Positions 23,192 to 64,000 of a stretch of 64,000 nt of DNA are shown one piece after another. The position numbers and the translations under genes were made by a program. The stretch's first letter is position 1; each line of letters begins with the position of its first letter. The notes under the pieces are model-generated. The model was not told where the DNA came from. It made no database searches and saw nothing but the letters and a program-made list of their open reading frames with translations. Origin of the DNA: Malus domestica (Eukaryota; Streptophyta; Magnoliopsida; Rosales; Rosaceae); assembly GCF_042453785.1 (NCBI RefSeq), contig NC_091668.1, positions 24,833,001 to 24,897,000 of the forward strand, read 5' to 3'.

Positions 23192-23636
23192 TTTCGTGAC
23201 ACACCCCGACCGAGGTAGAAGCATGCTGGCTGTCACGTGAACGTGACGTAACCATGTGCACAGTACGGAAGCAGTAATAAAAGGATTTACGAATGAATAA
23301 AAACAAATTATTCAGAATGGCTAGCCAAAAGCAAGTGCTAGTGCGAGATTAAGTGTAAATACACTAATAGAGCACAAAAATCTAAGAGCAGTCAAGCATA
23401 TGGATTACTAAATAAACAACACCTGAAGGTGGTCCTACATGAATGATGGTCTGTCAGAACCTCTGCTGCGAAGCCTCGTGAGCCACCAATAGACACTGCT
23501 TCTCTAAAACCTGGAGGGGCGCCAAACAAAAGTGTGAGTGGGCAAAAACAAAGTTTTTCAAAATCATTTCACTTATCAAAAACTCTAACCCCTTGCCGTA
23601 AAACATATATAATTTTCCCAAAAATAGAATATAAGT

Positions 23637-24941
23637 TGTTGATGCACAAAACCGGAGGGGTTTTGGAACAACGTAAATCCGACCGTGAATCTGCAAAAAA
23701 GTAAAGAACACAAGATGTATTGTGGTTCACCCCAATGTTTGGGCTACGTTCACACTGATGTATTTCTCTTCTCTGTATGAATGTATGAATTACAAGTAGG
23801 GCTGGAAAAAAATCCCAAAAATCCCAAACCGAACCGAAAAATTCCCGAAACCAAACCGAAAAAATCTCAAACCGAAATTCCCAAAAATTTCGGTATCCAA
23901 TACCGAACTAATCCCAAAATTTCGGTACGGGAATCGGTCTCAAGTTTTTGGGATTTCGGTATTCCCAAACCGAACCGAAAAAAATATATATATATATATA
24001 TTATTTAATTTCTAAATATATAGGAGCACATCTTTAAGGGGAACATCATCTACCTACAATAGTGAAAATTGAAATACTGAAGGAGCATTGGAAATCGATG
24101 ATGGACCGTATACAGGAAGGAGCCCTAAGATAGATAGTGGAACATATGAAGAATTTTTAAATCACAGAAGATTGATAGATGGATACATAGATGCAGAATA
24201 AACACGGGAGATTGATAGATGGATACATGGATAGATTATAAGTTACAATTTGCTTGAGAAAACTTTACATCTATCTATAATATTTATACTATATATGTAC
24301 AGAAGTTTACTCAAGCATATATTAACGTTTTAGACGTAATTTTGGGGATTGGCATGATTATAGATAATTGCACTAGTTTACTCAAGCACAAATTAACGTT
24401 TCAGATTGGCAGATTGCTTTTGAATAGGCAGATACTAACTGGGCCTTGCCATTTGATTGGCAGATTGCGTCTGCCTATATGTCAATTTTTCAATATAAAA
24501 GGTTGAATTTTAGCCTAAAAGCATAATATGTCAAATTTTAGTCCAAAAGCCCAAAACCATTTCGGGATTCCCGATTTGTCCCGAAATCCCGAAACTATTT
24601 CGGGATTCCCGAAAATTGGGATTCCCGAAAATTTCGGTTTGGGAATCGGGACAATGCTTTCGGTATGGGATCCCATACCGAACCACCCCTAATTACAAGT
24701 GTGAGGGGGAGTCCCCCAGAGAAAGAGAGAGTTTGAGAGAGCTCTCTGTTTGTGAGCTTTGTGGCCTCTGTATGTGAGGATGAGAGCCCTTGAATTGTGA
24801 GGGTGAGGAGGTCCTTTTATAGGCTAAGGGCTCATCCCCTTTTTACATATTTGCCCATTCATTTATTACATAATTACATTTAAGTCTCCCGAGTATTTAT
24901 ACGAGATCTAAATACGAAGGTCCGAAAGTATGGTACAAATA
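23637..24941 (-). repeat. 3' LTR of the non-autonomous element (hAT-interrupted)
   Basis: Homologous to 28307-28707 in the same orientation, with aattacaag split by the hAT insertion. Outer end tgttgatgcac, inner end tatggtacaaata next to the purine tract. Confidence 0.85.
23797..24691. mobile_element. Non-autonomous hAT element, 895 bp
   Basis: Termini tagggctgg and ccaccccta are inverted repeats with one mismatch. The flanking 8-mers attacaag (23789-23796 and 24692-24699) are identical, and the uninterrupted sequence is seen in the sister LTR near 28460. Subterminal zones are dense in cggtatgg, ccgaacc and cccgaaa words in both orientations, the expected layout of hAT transposase-binding regions. 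A (TA)n run lies at 23985-24001. No transposase frame. Confidence 0.9.
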
Positions 24942-25960
24942 GTAGTCCTCCAAGTCTTCAGTCAAGAGAGTCTTTTGGCTGGAGACTTGAAATTCAGTCC
25001 ATATGTGGACCGAAGTAACTAGATGTCGTCTAGAACTGATACTCAATATGAGACAGTGCTCAATGTGAAATGATGCTAAATTAGAAGTAGCACATGTTGC
25101 GAGGCTGCTCGGCTTGTGGCTTATGTTGCCTTAGTTGGCTCGGCTTGTGGCGTTGAAGGTGAGGGAGTCCCTTTTATAGAATAAGGGCTCGCTCCTCAAT
25201 ACATAAATGATGGACTATAGTTGATGCTCGCGGCGAGGTGGTTGCTCAGTAAGCGGCGATGCTCTCTAATGATGGTGATGGAGTCCCTTTTATAGAATAA
25301 GGGTTCGCTCCTCAATACATAAATGATGGGCTAGAGTTGATGCTCGCAGCGATGCGGTTACGCAGTAGGTGGCGATGCTCTCTAATGATGGTGAGAGAGT
25401 CCCTTTTATAGAATAAGGGCTCGCTCCTCAATACATAAGTGATGGGTTAGGAGTGATGCTCGCGGCGAGTCGGTTGCTCAGTAGGCAGCGATGCTCTCTA
25501 ATGATGGTGAGGGAGTCCCTTTTATAAAATAAGGGCTAGCTCCTCAGTACATGAATAATAGGTGCTCTCTAATGAAAGTGAGGGAGTCCTTTTTATAGAA
25601 TAAGGGCTCACTCCTCAATACATAAGTGATGGGTTAGGAGTAATGCTCGCGGCGATGCGGTTGCTCAGTAGGCAGCGATGCTCTCTAATGATGGTGAAGG
25701 AGTCCCTTTTATAAAATAAGGGCTCGCTCATCAGTACATGAATAATGGGTGCTCTCTAATGAAAGTGAGGGAGTCCCTTTTATAGAATAAGGGCTCACTC
25801 CTCAATACATAAGTGATGGGCTAAGTGCCCTAAGTATTTTTCATGAGGCCCAGTTGTGGAAGCCCAATATATGGTACATAGTGTAGTCCCCCAAGTCTTC
25901 AGTCAATAGAGTCTATTGGTTGGAGACTTCAAATTGAATCTATGTATGGGCCGAAGTGGC
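24942..25960. repeat. LTR-derived degenerate tandem array
   Basis: The block gagtcccttttatagaataa followed by gggctcgctcctcaatacat recurs about seven times between 25165 and 25820, in units of roughly 75 or 120 bp that also contain gatgctcgcggcgag and cagtaggcagcgatgctctc. The core is recognisably the LTR segment around 24800-24850 (ggtccttttataggctaagg). At 25870-25960 the LTR edge plus purine tract (gtagtcccccaagtcttcag) and its downstream 60 bp reappear, so the array is bracketed by two copies of the LTR/internal junction. Confidence 0.8.
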
Positions 25961-25994
25961 GGTTGTTTGGATGCGGTATTTGTATACCCTACAC

Positions 25995-26425
25995 TGAAGT
26001 TTTGTAGGTGAAGCTTTGCAAGTGAAGCTTTGAAGCTGGAGCTTTTGTAAATGAAGCTTTTGAAGCTAGAGCTTTTGAAGCTGGAGCTCTGTAAATGAAG
26101 CTTTCGAAGCTGATTGACATGAGTGATGCTCATGAATGTTGACATGAATGATGCTCATGAATGTTTATGTATGATTGACATGAGTGATGCTCATGAATGT
26201 TTATGTATGATTGACATGAGTGATGCTCATGTATAATTTTGGAATACTGGACGTACTTTTGATCACCTATTGGGTGATAATAGCGGCAGGCTGCCGAATA
26301 ATTTTGGAGTACTGGGCGTACTTTTGATCACTTGGTTGGTGATAATAGCGGCAGGGTGCCGAATAATTTTGGAGTACTGGGTGTACTTTTGATCACCTGA
26401 TTAGTGATAATAGCGACAGGGTGCC
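25995..26425. repeat. Three further short tandem arrays
   Basis: 25995-26110: gaagcttttgaagct-type units of about 15 bp. 26115-26236: tgacatgagtgatgctcatg units of about 40-45 bp, three to four copies. 26234-26425: a 65-67-bp unit containing ttttggagtactgggcgtac and gataatagcggcag, three copies. All lie in the 3' interior of the LTR element. Confidence 0.85.
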
Positions 26426-26836
26426 GAATAAATTTGAAGCCATAGGGCCTGACTCTTTTGGGCATATAACATTCCAGCCCATTATTTTGGGCTTGCCCTT
26501 TTTTTTTTTTTACTTATCCTTTGATGGGGTTATACAGATGTCTCCAAAAGATAAGACAAATAAATCACATCATTCAAAAATAAATCTGACCCTCTGCTTA
26601 ATGGGTCACGCCCATAATTCCCTTTTCTGCATGCCATCACTACCGCGCAATTATGTCTGCTTCTTTTTATCTTCTTTTGCTTTCTGCTTTTGCTTTTTGC
26701 TTTTACTTTCTACTTTTCTTTCTGCTTTGGATATGTCGCTTGATGACATGATTAAGGGCAATATTCTTTCTCTAAAGTGACAGCTGCTTGGACAACCTTT
26801 TCGACACCACCCACTTGCTTTTCTTGATCTTTCCGC

Positions 26837-27272
26837 TCATTCTCTGCCCACCCATGTTCTATGGCCTTGGAGACCATCTGGCTTTAAGCTTTTAATTGCC
26901 ACTGTAATCCCTAACCCGGGTTTCGCTGGCCCTGTCCCATTTTCCTCTATCCACCATTTGAACACGTATCCAAATCCGCCTTCCCCAAGAATGTTATTCG
27001 GCCTGAAGTTCCCCGTTACTGATTTTAGCTCCTGAAAAGTGAACTGGAGCAACTGGCGAACCGGCTTCTCATCTGAAGGCGATGGATTGGGAGCATCAGA
27101 GGATAGTTAGGCTTTATTTGGAGGCAAGAGGTCCTTATTGCTGGCATTAAGATATCTGGTCTCTGTAGCTGCATCATAAACAAGACTAGTACGAGGGATA
27201 GTGCTGGCAAAATCTTTGGAAGAAGAGGATTTGCAGGTACCGCTCCCGCCGCATTTAAGGACAGCCCAACAA
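26837..27272 (-). pseudogene. Captured fragment of a receptor-like cytoplasmic kinase (RLCK VII / PBL type)
   Basis: The frame reads YDAATETRYLNASNKDLLPP, an in-frame stop (27107-27109), then LLQFTFQELKSVTGNFRPNN, ILGEGGFGYVFK (glycine-rich ATP loop), ITVAIKSLKPDGLQGHRTW (with the beta-3 lysine in AIK) and a stop. This is the N-terminal region and start of the kinase domain of a PBS1-like cytoplasmic kinase. The activation loop and C-lobe are absent. It is broken by the stop and by truncation, and lies inside the LTR element antisense to the window but sense to the element. Non-functional as a kinase. Confidence 0.85.
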
Positions 27273-27387
27273 CTGCACTGGTTGTCTATGGATGCTTAGA
27301 GGTGTTAGCTTTTATGGGTTGTCAACATAATTACATACGCGATTCAAGACGAGCAGTGATCCCGGAGGAACATCGTGGCTCTAATCA

Positions 27388-28161
27388 TAATCACCGAAGA
27401 ATTGAAAGTTCTGACTGGTGGCTGGATTTTCGATTTGTCAAATTCGGAGAGTGACTTGTTGGCGTGCCATCTTTTCGGCGTTGGCGGCGAAGATCAATGG
27501 GTGGGTATGACCATCCATATGGAGAAGCTCCATCTGTCATCCTGACTTTTCGACCTCTAATGATAGCTAAGTTATCATCTTTGCTTTTATCCATCATGTC
27601 TTTAAAACCATTGCTGTCAGGAACTGAAGATTGAGCAACCTCAGGAGGAGTAGAGGAACGGGGAATGCCCCTAATAGGATGAGGAAGAAGAGACGGTGCT
27701 AAGCTGTAGTTGGGTTTTTATCAAATGCACAGGAATAGGCTGCTGAGGAGGGAAATTGAGTAGGCGCCGAGATGGGTACACAGCTCCGGCGTTGGCCACA
27801 ATGAGTGCGGGTTCATCTCCGGCTGGCCGGCGGCGGCGGTGGGACGAATGAGCCGATGAATAAAGCTTCGACCAGAGGAAGCCAGTGGGTACAGAACCCC
27901 TTGATGATTAGCAGCTGCTGGTGATGATGATGGCCATTGGGTTCGAATTTGGAAGGATGGGGCTGTGTAAAGATTAGAAAGAAGATGAGATGATACGGCA
28001 GGTCTTACCAGCCTCGTCGTGGTTGTGTTGTGAGCGGCAGCTCCTACGGTGGCCATGTTGGCGGCGGCTGAAGCGGTGGTGTGGTTGGGATCTATAGTCA
28101 TGGTGGTGTCTGCGGGCAGTGGTGGGGAAATTTGGGAATTTGTTGCGCTTTGCAACTTCAT
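27388..28161 (-). pseudogene. Captured LIN37-like gene fragment
   Basis: Minus-strand frames give TTTTRLVRPAVSSHLL, GVLYPLASSGRSFIHR, RGIPRSSTPPEVAQSSVP, then DSNGFKDMMDKSKDDN and LAIIRGRKVRMTDGASPYG. The run KSKDDNLxIIRxRKVRxxDGASxY resembles, from memory, plant LIN37-like proteins (a DREAM-complex subunit that regulates cell-cycle genes). The reading frame stops at 27721 and resumes in another frame, and diverges after SPYG, so the copy is frameshifted. Family call is moderate; that it is host coding sequence captured between primer-binding site and kinase fragment is better supported than its exact identity. Confidence 0.55.
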
Positions 28162-28287
28162 CTCGTCTATTATCTCTGTGGCTGTGACTCTGTATAGGTT
28201 TTTGCAGATCCACGATGGAAAATGATGAGGTCTCACGGTGGTGAGATGAAAAAATGAAAGAAAACTGACATAGCTTTTTGTGTCGAT

Positions 28288-28306
28288 TCTCACAGACGGC
28301 GCCAAA
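28288..28306 (-). other. Primer-binding site of the LTR element
   Basis: Read on the minus strand: TTTGGCGCCGTCTGTGAGA immediately after the LTR end CAACA. TGGCGCC-type sites next to LTRs are common in plant gypsy-related elements. It fixes the element's orientation as minus. Confidence 0.75.
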
Positions 28307-28707
28307 TGTTGATGCACAAAACCGGAGGGGTCTTGGAACAACGTAAATCCAACCGTGAATCTTCAAGAAAGTAAAGAACACAAGATGTATCGTGGTTCAC
28401 CCCAATGTTTGGGCTACGTCCACACTGATGTATTTCTCTTCTCTGTATGAATGTATGAATTACAAGTTTGAGGGGGAGTCCTCTAAAGAAAGAGAGAGTT
28501 TGAGAGAGCTCTCTGTTTGTGAGCTTTGTGGCCTCTGTATGTGAGGATGAGAGCCCTTGGATTGTTAGGGTGAAGATGCCCTTTTATAGACTAAGGGTTC
28601 CTTCTCTTTTTACATATTTGCCTCTTCATTTATTACATAATTACATTTAAGTCCCCCGAGTATTTATACGAGATCTAAATACAGAGGCCCTAAGTATGGT
28701 ACAAACA
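28307..28707 (-). repeat. 5' LTR of the non-autonomous element
   Basis: 401 bp; on the minus strand starts TGTTTGTACCATAC and ends GTGCATCAACA. Contains GA-rich agagagagtttgagagagct and ccttttatag, homologous to the other LTR. Confidence 0.85.
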
Positions 28708-30061
28708 TAAGTATATATATTCAATCATGCTTCACATAATCATAATCATAAGTATGCCATGCCAGAAATATATGACAGAATAAGTAACACAGGTGGTAGT
28801 ATGCTCATGGAAAACAACATATCAGCTGGAACCCTTACAGAGGTCTGTACAGCATGAATTCATAACTTATCAATCAATCTAGCTGTAGTCACCTCATGTG
28901 ACCTGTACGACACTACTCTGCACACAAGTCAAAACCATTGAAATGGTATGTACGACAAGATTGGGTGTAATATAGTTATGCTCAATGCTACGCCCTATTG
29001 CTAGCTGTGCAATAAATCGCTAGTCACCTACGAGTCGGAACCACTTATAGTGGTGTGTACGATAAGACTGTGCACCTAAATTGGATCCAATGTGAGCATA
29101 TGGTGCGAGAGGTGACATAATATACAAGCTTGTGCCAACTCTCTCTGGCTAAATCACAATCACCCGGGATGCAGGTTTATGAGCTCATCATTTCTCAATC
29201 ATATCTCATGTAACAATCAACATGATCATCACACTATTCCTTTCATCACAATTATGACATGGCTGCACCTAACGTTTCGTTAGGCTGCCTACGTACCCTA
29301 AACAGGGATCAAGCCATTTGTAGTTCACATAATCAAGCATAACTTACCTAGTACTTACCTGAGCGTCCATAGCACCACAAACATATATATATATGCAACC
29401 ATGAAATGCATATTCAGAACATACAAGCATTTGGCATATTATTTCAAAGCATACTTTCCTTTAAAATGCATTTCTGGGAAACTATGTCACGTATATAGAT
29501 ATATACTGAAAACAAAAGCCCATTCACTGATATGTAGCCGAGTCGTAACCCCCACGCCTAGCCTAGCTACGCTCGTCCTCTGGATAGGTCTCGCCTAGAA
29601 TAGCTTCGATCTCGGCCTTTCAACGTCCATTTCCTTTCAACGAAGTACCCTGAGACTCGTGAGGACCTCCTTAAGCTTCATGTGAGCTGAAAATGGTCTA
29701 GATGTGTTCCTGAGCTTGCGAGGAACACGATGGTACCTTCAACGTCCTTGATCTATGAAGTTTGAATGGGTTTTGGTGTTTGTCCGTACACAATGCTGAG
29801 AGGGAGAGAGAGAGTCTGAGAGATAGAAAGATAGCACGGGAGGAAGAGAGAGAAATGGGTATGGATGTGTGTGTGGTCCAAAAATACACACCAATCAAAT
29901 TTGTTTAATCCTTTTGTTCTAATTGGGTCCAATTAGTTAGGAATGGAACTAATTGACCCAATTCCTTAACCCAAAACACAAACACACATCCAACGCTCAA
30001 GGGTAAATCGGTCTTTTCACAACCACGATAATTAATTCTCGGGATGGGCTGTGACATTTCG

Positions 30062-33015: not shown

Positions 33016-33984
33016 TCAGTAAGGCGGTGGAGGTGGTGGTTGCCTTGCAGTTGGAGCCCATATTACATCAGTAGGCAAGTGACCGCTGTACATGGTCATC
33101 CCACACGTTTGTGACGGCTGTGGCGCGTGTCCCCCACTGTCCGCTGCACCCCCAGAAACCTGCGGCGAATGACCCTCACCCACAACCGAGTTCCTCACCA
33201 CCTCGTCTTCCACGGGGAGCCGATGGTAAGAAGGATTGCTAAACGACGCGGCGACTAGGTAAACGGTTCCTGCGGCTATTAGGGCTCCGGCCACGAGGCC
33301 CCCGACGATCTGGCCCTGCGGGCCCGCCAGAGAGATGGTGAAGCCGCTGGGGTTGGAGACGGGGCAAGACGGCAACGATTGGGAGAGGAAAGTAGCGGAT
33401 ATGGAGAGGATGTCGAAACGGCCGTGAAAAGTTACCGTAGCGCCGGGCGTAGTTGACGGCTGGCGAAGGGTGACGTTGGCCACGGTTCCGGAGCCGGTGA
33501 GAACGCAGAGCCCAATGTTTTTGCGAGAGCAGAAGCGGGAGACAGCTTCGACCACGTCGTTTCCGGAGTGCACTTCGAGAATGTAGGGGCTCATTGGAGG
33601 CTCAGAGTCGCGAGTTATGATGACGGGGGGCTTGGGTTTGTTTTTGGAGCCAGGTGGGCGGCCTCGGGGCCGTCGGATGACTTCAATGGTGGCGCCATCG
33701 GCAGATGGGTTGTTGATGTTGTTGGGGTCGGAGGAGGAGTTGGGGTGGGGATTGTGGGGAGATGGGTTGGTGGTGGTGACGGTGGCTGTGCCGCTGCTGG
33801 TTCGGCTGGTGTCTTCTTCTTCGGAGGTTTGGGATTCGCGGTGGGGGATGACTTGGAAGGGGCTGGAGAATTGGTGGGGGTGGTGGTGTAAGTTGTGGTG
33901 GTGGGGGTTTTGTTGGTTTGGGTGGTGAAGCTTGGAGAAGATGTTTTGGGAGTCACTCTTGCTGTCAACATACTCACCTCTCAT
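33016..33984 (-). CDS. AT-hook motif nuclear-localized protein (AHL), intronless
   Basis: DNA-binding nuclear protein that binds AT-rich DNA and forms multimers to regulate growth genes. The 322-aa frame starts MRGEYVDSKS and has a His/Asn/Pro-rich N-terminus, a single AT-hook RRPRGRPPGSKNKPKPP (core RGRP at residues 107-110), and a PPC/DUF296 domain from about 131 to 250 with GRFDILSISATFL and SLAGPQGQIVGGLVAGALIA, AGTVYLVAASFSNPSYHRLP. The tail ends DVIWAPTARQPPPPPPY. One AT-hook plus no introns fits clade A; the IEVIRRPRGRPPGSKNK form looks closest to the AHL17/28 group, from memory. Upstream DNA holds three GA repeats. Confidence 0.93.
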   Translation of the reverse strand: MRGEYVDSKSDSQNIFSKLHHPNQQNPHHHNLHHHPHQFSSPFQVIPHRESQTSEEEDTSRTSSGTATVTTTNPSPHNPHPNSSSDPNNINNPSADGATIEVIRRPRGRPPGSKNKPKPPVIITRDSEPPMSPYILEVHSGNDVVEAVSRFCSRKNIGLCVLTGSGTVANVTLRQPSTTPGATVTFHGRFDILSISATFLSQSLPSCPVSNPSGFTISLAGPQGQIVGGLVAGALIAAGTVYLVAASFSNPSYHRLPVEDEVVRNSVVGEGHSPQVSGGAADSGGHAPQPSQTCGMTMYSGHLPTDVIWAPTARQPPPPPPY

Positions 33985-34300
33985 ATTTGTTTATCCTTCT
34001 TCCCTCTTTCTTTTTTATTTTTGGGATTTATTGGGTTTTTATTTAAATATAACTCTAGCTGCTGAACTGAGGTTGGTAAAGTGATTGGTGGGTTTTTAGG
34101 GAGAGAAATGAATTAAATAAAGGGGAAGGAGAGGGAGGATTTAGGGGTTACGAAGTTGATGGGGAGGGAGGGGGGCAGGAGGAGGAGGAAGTGGAAGAGA
34201 GATGGGGAGAGGTGGTATTTGGATTTATTTATAATAAATATATGGGATGAGGATGAAATGTTATGATATGATATGGCATGCAGAGCAGACTGTAGAGACT

Positions 34301-62537: not shown

Positions 62538-64000
62538 CTCCCTCTAAAGTTGGAGTGTATGTTGATGACACCCAACTTGCCAAGTAAGGTCTCAAACTGT
62601 GTCGAACTCAGTGGCTTGGTGAACAAATCTGCTGGTTGGTTTGTTGTTCGTATATAGGTTGTTCACACCATCCTTCCTTGAATTTTCTCGCGTACTAGGT
62701 GACAATCTATTTCTATATGCTTCGTTCGTTCATGGAGTACTGGGTTTGAAGCAATGTGCATGGCGGCTTGATTGTCATAGAATAATGTAACAGGTTGTGC
62801 ATGATTCACTTGCAAGTCCTTCAAAATATTCTTGAGCCATGTGACTTCGCAACAAATAGTGGTCATGGAGCGATATTCTGCCTCTGCACTAGGACGAGAT
62901 ACAATGCTTTGTTTCTTTGTCTTCCAAGAGATAGGTGATTATCCAAGAAAGATACAATAACTAGTTACCGATCTTCTTGTGTCTTTACATCGAGCCTAGT
63001 CAGCGTCACAAAGAGCTTGTAATTGCAATGAACCTGTAGCAGGTAGAAAAATTCCTTGTCCAGAAGCCTGTTTAATGTATCTAAGGACTTTATGTGCTGC
63101 TTCAAGGTGTGGTTATCATGGCTTATCCATGAATTGGCTCAACACATGAACCACATAGGTTAGGTCCGGCCTTGTAATTGTTAAGTAAATTAACCTGCCC
63201 ACTAGCCGTCTATATAAACATGGATTATTCAACAGTGTCCCATTTGTTTACGTGAGGGACAAGTTTTGTTCCATAGGAAACCGTGAGGGTTTTGATCCAA
63301 GGAAACCAGTATCATCTAATATTTCCAATGCATACTTGCATTGACATAAAGTAATTCCCTTGCTTGATCTTGCAACTTTTATTCCCAGAAAATATTTGAG
63401 CTGTCCCAAATCCTTTAGTTTGAAATGTTGGGAAAGAAAGCATTTAGTCTCTTCAGTCTCTTGTAGGTTATTTCATGTAAGTATTACATCATCAATGTAG
63501 ACTAGTAACGCCATAAACTACCTTGATGACTTCGGACGAACAGTGAGTAATTAGACCACGATTGATGGAAACCAGCGGCTTTGAGGGCATTGGATAACTT
63601 GATAAACCATTGTCTCGATGCCTGTTTTAAACCATAAAGTGATTTGTTTAGTTTGCATACACGAGTCTCCCCCTTTCGTCCGAACCTAGGAGGCAAGGTC
63701 ATATAGACATCTTCGTACAAATCACCATTCAAGAAGGCATTGTTCACGTCGAGTTGGTGGAGATGCCAACCGCGGAGTGCAGCAATGCTCAGAAGGACAC
63801 AAATAGTGGTGAGCTTGGCAATGGGAGCAAATGTTTCCCGATAATCAATCCCCTCTATTTAACTATAACCTTTCGCAACAAGTCGAGCTTTGTAGCGCTT
63901 GACACTCCCATTAAGTTTAAGCTTCACTTTGTACACCCATTTGCAGCCAATGGGACGTTTGTGAGATGGTAAGGGGCACAAGAGTCCATGTATGATTTGC
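62340..64000 (-). mobile_element. Ty1/Copia retrotransposon, 3' part, decayed
   Basis: The minus strand enters from beyond the window with [32 protein letters not shown] and LHQLDVNNAFLNGDLYEDVY (reverse transcriptase), LYGLKQASRQW, and the catalytic YIDD-type box VYIDDVILT near 63490-63505. RNase H follows with [32 protein letters not shown] and [14 protein letters not shown] at 62663-62830. An in-frame stop (after LVAKGYS, about 63857) and further stops and frame changes show that it is inactive. Gag, protease and integrase would be outside the window. Confidence 0.9.

Follow-up and report, generated by a model that had tools for sequence, protein, structure and literature searches.

Several plant long terminal repeat (LTR) retrotransposons are known to carry host gene sequence. 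In maize, Bs1 carries sequence from three distinct host genes (PMC13317346), and its captured parts consist of exons only (PMC4717578). In soybean, the terminal-repeat retrotransposon in miniature (TRIM) GmaRetroS15 holds pieces of three host genes; 30 TRIM elements in seven subfamilies carry putative gene fragments, and gene-carrying TRIMs measure 1,172–1,449 bp, with intron-free captured parts and 5-bp target-site duplications (TSDs) (PMC4717578). Retroduplication of pepper NLR genes has placed host mRNA copies in LTR elements, about 72% of which lack gag or pol (PMC5664825), and captured genes in LTR elements number 672 in rice and 1,343 in sorghum (PMC3726574). Here we describe an LTR element with captured host gene pieces in a 64-kb stretch of the Malus domestica genome (the window), together with the family to which it belongs, the copies of which share both ends and differ in the host sequence (cargo) between them. 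As far as our literature search shows, what is new is a single family whose copies differ in cargo and retain both ends and nested remnants, LTR gene capture itself being known. The search returned no title or abstract opening reporting the apple family, which does not show that the family is unpublished.

Like Bs1, the window element holds host gene fragments, exons only, inside an LTR element; unlike Bs1, which is described there with one captured gene set, the apple copies carry differing sets. It shares with the TRIMs intron-free captured parts, a 5-bp TSD and pieces of three host genes, and differs from them in its size (about 4.2 kb net, with 401-bp LTRs), its long repetitive 3′ module and a cargo that varies within one family. 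The pepper elements likewise contain host mRNA copies, in that case of NLR genes of particular subgroups, whereas the apple family carries short mosaics of unrelated genes. Because multi-gene capture is documented in these accounts for Bs1 and GmaRetroS15, the rarity that an earlier reading of the window, made from sequence only, had attributed to double capture was overstated.

The window element is a non-autonomous LTR retrotransposon in the apple genome. It has paired LTRs with TG...CA ends, a 5-bp TSD, a primer-binding site (PBS) and a short purine tract. On the minus strand, the PBS TGGCGCCGTCTG comes after the right LTR, and TATAAAAGG, which lies within the LTR, has that orientation too; the right LTR is therefore the 5′ LTR and the element reads on the minus strand, in the order 5′ LTR, PBS, leader, host pieces, repetitive 3′ module, purine tract and 3′ LTR; a plus-strand element was ruled out by the positions of the TATA motif and the PBS. 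Alignment confirmed the 401–402-bp LTRs and TAAGT duplication of the sequence-only reading once a nested insert had been excluded: the left LTR is 402 bp net after removal of the 895-bp insert and one 8-bp duplication. BLAST aligns the two LTRs in two blocks of 96% and 91% identity, and they differ at 28 of 401 compared sites (Kimura two-parameter distance, K2P, 0.074; insert excluded, two bases too many taken at the inner boundary). A single change has turned TG into TA, as read on the minus strand, where the left LTR meets the interior. The word clear, which the earlier reading used of the PBS and purine tract, was generous for the tract, which is short (TTGGAGGA at the left LTR; TTGGGGGA in the internal repeat of the purine-tract stretch).

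As the earlier reading had stated, no retroviral genes were recognized in the interior of about 3.4 kb, which has no long open reading frame of the gag or pol kind; six frames chosen from the element gave no Pfam match above cut-off. An Rfam search and a tRNA scan in the bacterial setting yielded no match. The element exceeds the miniature size of TRIMs. Large retrotransposon derivatives (LARDs) have very long LTRs and a long conserved non-coding interior, and the 401-bp LTRs and a middle not conserved among copies place the element outside that class as well. Host exon sequence without introns within an LTR element is the Bs1-like character that it does possess.

Three host pieces, all in sense orientation, lie in the interior: a LIN37 fragment, an ANKRD13-like fragment and a fragment of a PBL34-type receptor-like cytoplasmic kinase gene. 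The LIN37 piece matches a gene on contig C2 in three blocks: 28152–27634 (C2:37362155–37362673, 90%), 27641–27594 (C2:37363628–37363675, 96%) and 27592–27542 (C2:37363792–37363842, 94%). Introns of about 955 and 116 bp are absent, exons 1, 2 and 3 being joined at the donor and acceptor sites of the C2 gene, and a homeolog on C7 has the same blocks. Protein alignment with P0004 extends the LIN37 part to 27517, beyond a third exon border. Several full-length homologues contain PF15306; a PDB search with the LIN37 frame returned no match. The kinase piece corresponds to C15:12868522–12868692 (27336–27166, 92%) and C15:12869355–12869678 (27171–26848, 95%), with an intron of about 662 bp absent and the join at the splice sites of the C15 gene. 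Its best PDB matches are PBL2 and BIK1, Malus baccata P0005 aligns to it gap-free over residues 1–147, and its start codon has changed from ATG to ATA. Between the two, 27467–27338 matches C10:18555804–18555675 at 91%, a locus that looks degenerate, and C5:45475597–45475727 at 76%; from the reading frames of the C5 locus (L057), we take this piece to derive from a gene for an ANKRD13-like ankyrin protein. The sequence-only reading had thus identified the LIN37-like and kinase fragments and their orientation correctly, and its count of two captured genes was one short; it did not mention the nested insert, nor had it noticed that different genes are carried by other copies.

Because matching loci were found exon by exon at 90–96% identity, the host pieces are not chance resemblances, and because the LIN37 and kinase introns are missing at exact splice sites, spliced mRNA must have been copied. 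The parental genes that the earlier reading had proposed to look for exist for both pieces, and the parental introns are missing from them. Gene capture by a non-autonomous LTR element is supported, and we infer that mobilization took place in trans. Both the LIN37 and the kinase piece extend across the start codon position into 5′ untranslated region (UTR), but capture beginning where transcription begins is unsupported as a general rule, the ANKRD13-like piece being internal and 5′ UTR-like sequence lying upstream of the kinase match. Predicted introns aside, Malus domestica gene models P0002 and P0003 show no substitution relative to the window copy and P0001 shows three in each of two blocks, which suggests that the same insertion is present in other apple assemblies. 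Annotators should note that apple gene sets list the cargo of this element as hypothetical proteins.

A search of the assembly with the LTR, in which 40 places were scored among 3,855 candidates, recovered the further copies that the earlier reading had called for. We fetched 16 places from the LTR matches, chosen before the coding content of their middles was known; 14 had a delimitable middle (L034 and L036 did not), giving 15 cargoes with the window copy. Twelve more copies, biased toward the LIN37 and kinase pieces, came from searches with those pieces, for 27 delimited copies in all. LTR, leader and 3′ module blocks are present in 15/15 copies of the LTR-derived set; the 3′ module starts without its first block in L032 and L040, and L039 has neither the purine-tract stretch nor a second LTR within the fetched stretch. 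The first ~64–110 bases of the leader are common to other copies with the TGGCGCCGTCTG leader; a literature search for the PBS letters returned nothing. By contrast with these shared ends, only four of the 105 cargo pairs share at least 200 bp (L031, L043 and L044 mutually, and L035 with L042), and nine share anything at an E value of 1e-5. In a first comparison of 17 LTR-adjacent stretches and the window, L004 and L023 formed the sole pair sharing more than 300 bp, and four of the 17 (L009, L022, L024 and L026) had a different leader or no PBS. Exact 5-bp TSDs flank 7 of 10 other LTR pairs. In L035 (297–1692), an LTR and leader are followed about 900 bp on by a second LTR and leader, ahead of one cargo.

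Fifteen cargoes, nine from the LTR-derived copies and six from the later twelve, were scanned against Pfam in all three sense frames, stop codons being written as X. Ten contain a family above cut-off: Ole e 1 (L031), Rx_N and auxin canalization (L033), FAD-binding (L035), pyruvate kinase (L041), DUF3474 (L042), MGDG synthase (L045), WD40 (L051), thioredoxin (L073 and L077) and mitochondrial carrier (L074). For nine of the ten (L073 excluded), the antisense strand was scanned as well and gave no match in any of 27 frames. PDB comparison identified HPPD in L051 (E 2e-109), an Obg-like ATPase in L075 (E 3.1e-12) and MGDG synthase 1 in L045; the L035 frame found distant oxidases only.

Two of these cargoes were traced to their sources. 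That of L041 is a mosaic: positions 33–160 match C16 and C11, 151–329 match C6 and C14, and 326–891 consist of five adjoining blocks of a pyruvate kinase gene (C14:14307613–14309530) that lie 83–601 bp apart in that gene, with a homeologous set on C12. An exon end at query 891, where the pyruvate kinase match stops, was unsupported; by eye, the next 35 unassigned bases may still be part of the piece. The L077 cargo joins a piece of C15:10566447–10566886 to a disulfide-isomerase-like piece from C15:41752284–41753505, and two introns read in the latter gene are absent from the cargo at exact sites. An ending of this piece at an annotated-looking exon end was likewise unsupported. At C13:13877066 (L078), where LTRs were not seen, a disulfide-isomerase piece is joined at its exon 2 end to other coding-looking sequence, which by eye we presume to resemble zeaxanthin epoxidase.

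Some copies retain trimmed parts of the cargo found in the window. The kinase tail begins at 27163 in L068, 26943 in L072 and L073 and 26936 in L070, with other sequence upstream, and in all four it adjoins the same 3′ module border; over 314 bp, the window copy and L068 share seven derived changes relative to the C15 gene. L051, L052, L054 and L055 have the LTR, leader and LIN37 5′ end. In L051 and L052, 81 bp of that end are retained, followed by other sequence including HPPD; L054 and L055 retain 71–74 bp, followed by another sequence common to both. These eight loci supply the additional carriers of captured sequence on which the sequence-only reading had made its case depend. The complete LIN37–ANKRD13–kinase set occurs in none of the other loci seen. 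We infer that the LIN37 and kinase captures predate the window insertion and that parts of them were replaced later in sister lineages.

A candidate for the autonomous partner is contained in L033, which has a family LTR, the same PBS as the window copy, and gag (PF03732), reverse transcriptase (RT; PF00078, RVT_1) and RNase H (PF17919, PF17917) reading frames under that LTR (L033:593–4962). No integrase match was found in this gag–RT–RNase H part. Beyond it, L033 continues with a U5-like end and a further PBS and leader, which precede the cargo, the 3′ module and an LTR; the TSD is AATAG. From this arrangement, L033 is a probable recombinant of the autonomous partner with a non-autonomous body, formed by a switch between RNAs. 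The family is probably of the Ty3/gypsy type, a superfamily recognized by RT relationship and by the order of RT and integrase. The Retand lineage of Ty3/gypsy elements has a long stretch from pol to the 3′ LTR with short tandem repeat arrays, and some of its members are non-autonomous (PMC11963269). The apple family resembles it in its long repeat-rich 3′ part; of the apple partner, only gag, RT and RNase H families were found in L033.

Together, these comparisons point to a non-autonomous vector family with two fixed ends, in which cargo has probably been replaced stepwise by repeated RT template switching onto co-packaged spliced host mRNAs. The vector would comprise a 5′ end of LTR, PBS and leader and a 3′ end of a 1.7–2-kb module with purine tract and LTR, and its RNA would be packaged and copied by proteins of the autonomous partner, which has a related LTR and shares the PBS. 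In the course of minus-strand synthesis, RT would leave the element RNA, copy one or more co-packaged spliced host mRNAs toward their 5′ ends and rejoin an element RNA at the leader or close to it. Part of the earlier cargo would be replaced every time, leaving newer host pieces and trimmed older remnants beside the two constant ends. The LTR pair, TSD, PBS, spliced sense host pieces, intron-bearing source genes, differing cargoes and shared remnants are all observed; that host mRNAs are packaged, that they are copied in this direction, that proteins come from the partner in trans and that events took this order is what the scheme proposes. Template switching in minus-strand synthesis would leave multi-gene cargo, spliced and in sense orientation, between two fixed ends, as seen here.

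Several observations weigh against this account. Three of the 10 other LTR pairs (L031, L038 and L046) lack a clean TSD, and the LTR pair of L037 is diverged (K2P 0.30). In the sense-frame Pfam scan, 4 of the 15 cargoes (L038, L039, L070 and L075) gave no match and L046 gave matches below cut-off only; source genes were sought for 3 of the 27 delimited cargoes (window, L041 and L077). Nor does copying always run to the 5′ end of the mRNA, the ANKRD13-like piece being internal. Moreover, the kinase piece stops where exon 2 of the C15 gene stops, and the disulfide-isomerase piece of L078, taken as another copy, also ends at exon 2; RNA splicing accounts for both ends no less well than template switching does. 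The two processes may both have been at work.

Splicing is central to a gene-trap explanation, in which the element inserts in sense orientation in or behind a host gene, host 5′ exons splice to an acceptor at the start of the 3′ module, and the resulting fusion RNA, once packaged, recovers its leader through a single template switch. In a genome search with the kinase region (40 of 178 candidates scored), 10 of the 18 listed places starting after query 600 start at 629–635 (window 26852–26846), a sharp upstream border of the module that recurs; the different cargoes of L074, L076 and L077 meet the module border within a few bases; and six further loci start exactly at query 927 of L041. The end of the kinase piece at its exon 2 end is of the same kind. 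Yet the kinase carriers share one inherited junction and are hence not independent, and an acceptor intron appears in none of the copies seen. By eye, the disulfide-isomerase piece of L077 stops ~70 coding bases before the C15 frame ends, although a GT follows, so a cryptic donor is possible. At the ANKRD13/kinase joint of the window copy, no GT follows the first piece and no AG precedes the second. We regard the gene trap as an unlikely explanation.

Two further explanations place the origin of the cargo elsewhere. If genomic fragments had been moved in as DNA, by recombination, repair or nested insertion, introns would not be gone at exact splice sites, as they are in the window copy and L077, the five pyruvate kinase blocks would not adjoin in L041, and Pfam matches would not be confined to the sense strand in the nine cargoes scanned on both strands; the intron losses largely refute this route, which we judge highly improbable. 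A decayed coding region native to the family, with no more than a resemblance to host genes, would agree with the ends common to copies, but most middles are mutually unrelated and three match host loci exon by exon. An old element coding region is ruled out on these grounds, and this is the least credible of the readings considered.

Template switching onto host mRNAs, the reading we prefer, can be extended to a standing retro-vector, in which leader and 3′ module would suffice for packaging and reverse transcription, the middle could be any host mRNA and cargo would be exchanged so often that nearly every insertion would sample the transcriptome of its time. We offer this extension tentatively and think it somewhat doubtful; if it is true, the copies form a dated record of mRNAs entering particles. 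Host-gene uptake by LTR elements is usually argued from single finished cases, and the apple copies allow capture steps, breakpoints and their order to be read by comparison. With both ends common to the copies, cargo that varies and older cargo surviving in trimmed form, template switching can be tested against splicing into the element. The family is also a source of new exon combinations and a natural record of the copying and mixing of cellular messages.

Features of the window element and its flanks (window coordinates; Malus domestica, G000:C8:24833001–24897000)
Feature	Position	Strand	Remarks
Whole LTR element	23637–28707	minus	in the 64-kb window
TSD TAAGT, left copy	23632–23636	none	
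TSD TAAGT, right copy	28708–28712	none	
5′ LTR, 401 bp	28307–28707	minus	TATAAAAGG at 28588–28580 on minus
PBS TGGCGCCGTCTG	28293–28304	minus	near-identical in other family copies
Leader 3′ of 5′ LTR	28153–28306	minus	
LIN37 fragment	27517–28152	minus	~50 nt of 5′ UTR, exons 1–3 and start of exon 4, spliced
Stretch between LIN37 and ANKRD13-like pieces, 49 bp	27468–27516	minus	no match among loci listed
ANKRD13-like internal fragment	27338–27467	minus	third captured gene
PBL34/35-type receptor-like cytoplasmic kinase fragment	26848–27336	minus	exons 1–2 joined
3′ module	24942–26847	minus	Tandem Repeats Finder (TRF), self-BLAST, equal block order in fetched copies
3′ LTR, 402 bp net	23637–24941	minus	split by nested insert; BLAST and alignment with right LTR
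Nested insert, 895 bp, ends TAGGG...CCCTA	23797–24691	none	inside 3′ LTR; sequence and junctions

The 3′ module, the upstream edge of which lies near 26847, contains the purine tract at the left LTR, tandem TATA-block repeats (25154–25823), a polypurine tract (PPT)-like repeat (25870–25957), a minisatellite (25994–26231), a 65-bp unit present about three times (26233–26436) and a purine-rich stretch. In the tandem array, which includes the TATA block, TRF found periods of 71, 116 and 187 bp, and the array resembles part of the LTR (promoter region). Self-BLAST shows that 88 bp at the LTR's inner end (24929–25016) recur at 25870–25957 with 84% identity, so that a degenerate extra U3, along with a purine tract, appears to lie within the module. 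Sharp borders at window position 26847 and L041 cargo position 927, where several loci with different neighbors start, may mark a splice acceptor, a pause site or shared ancestry. The insert nested in the 3′ LTR is bracketed by the 8-bp duplication ATTACAAG (23789–23796 and 24692–24699); from this duplication and its inverted ends, we take it to be a hAT-like non-autonomous DNA transposon.

Elsewhere in the window, an open frame on the minus strand at 33019–33990 resembles, by eye, an AT-hook DNA-binding protein gene, and Copia-like reverse transcriptase and RNase H frames were recognized by eye near the right end, also on the minus strand (62666–62938 and 63505–63858).

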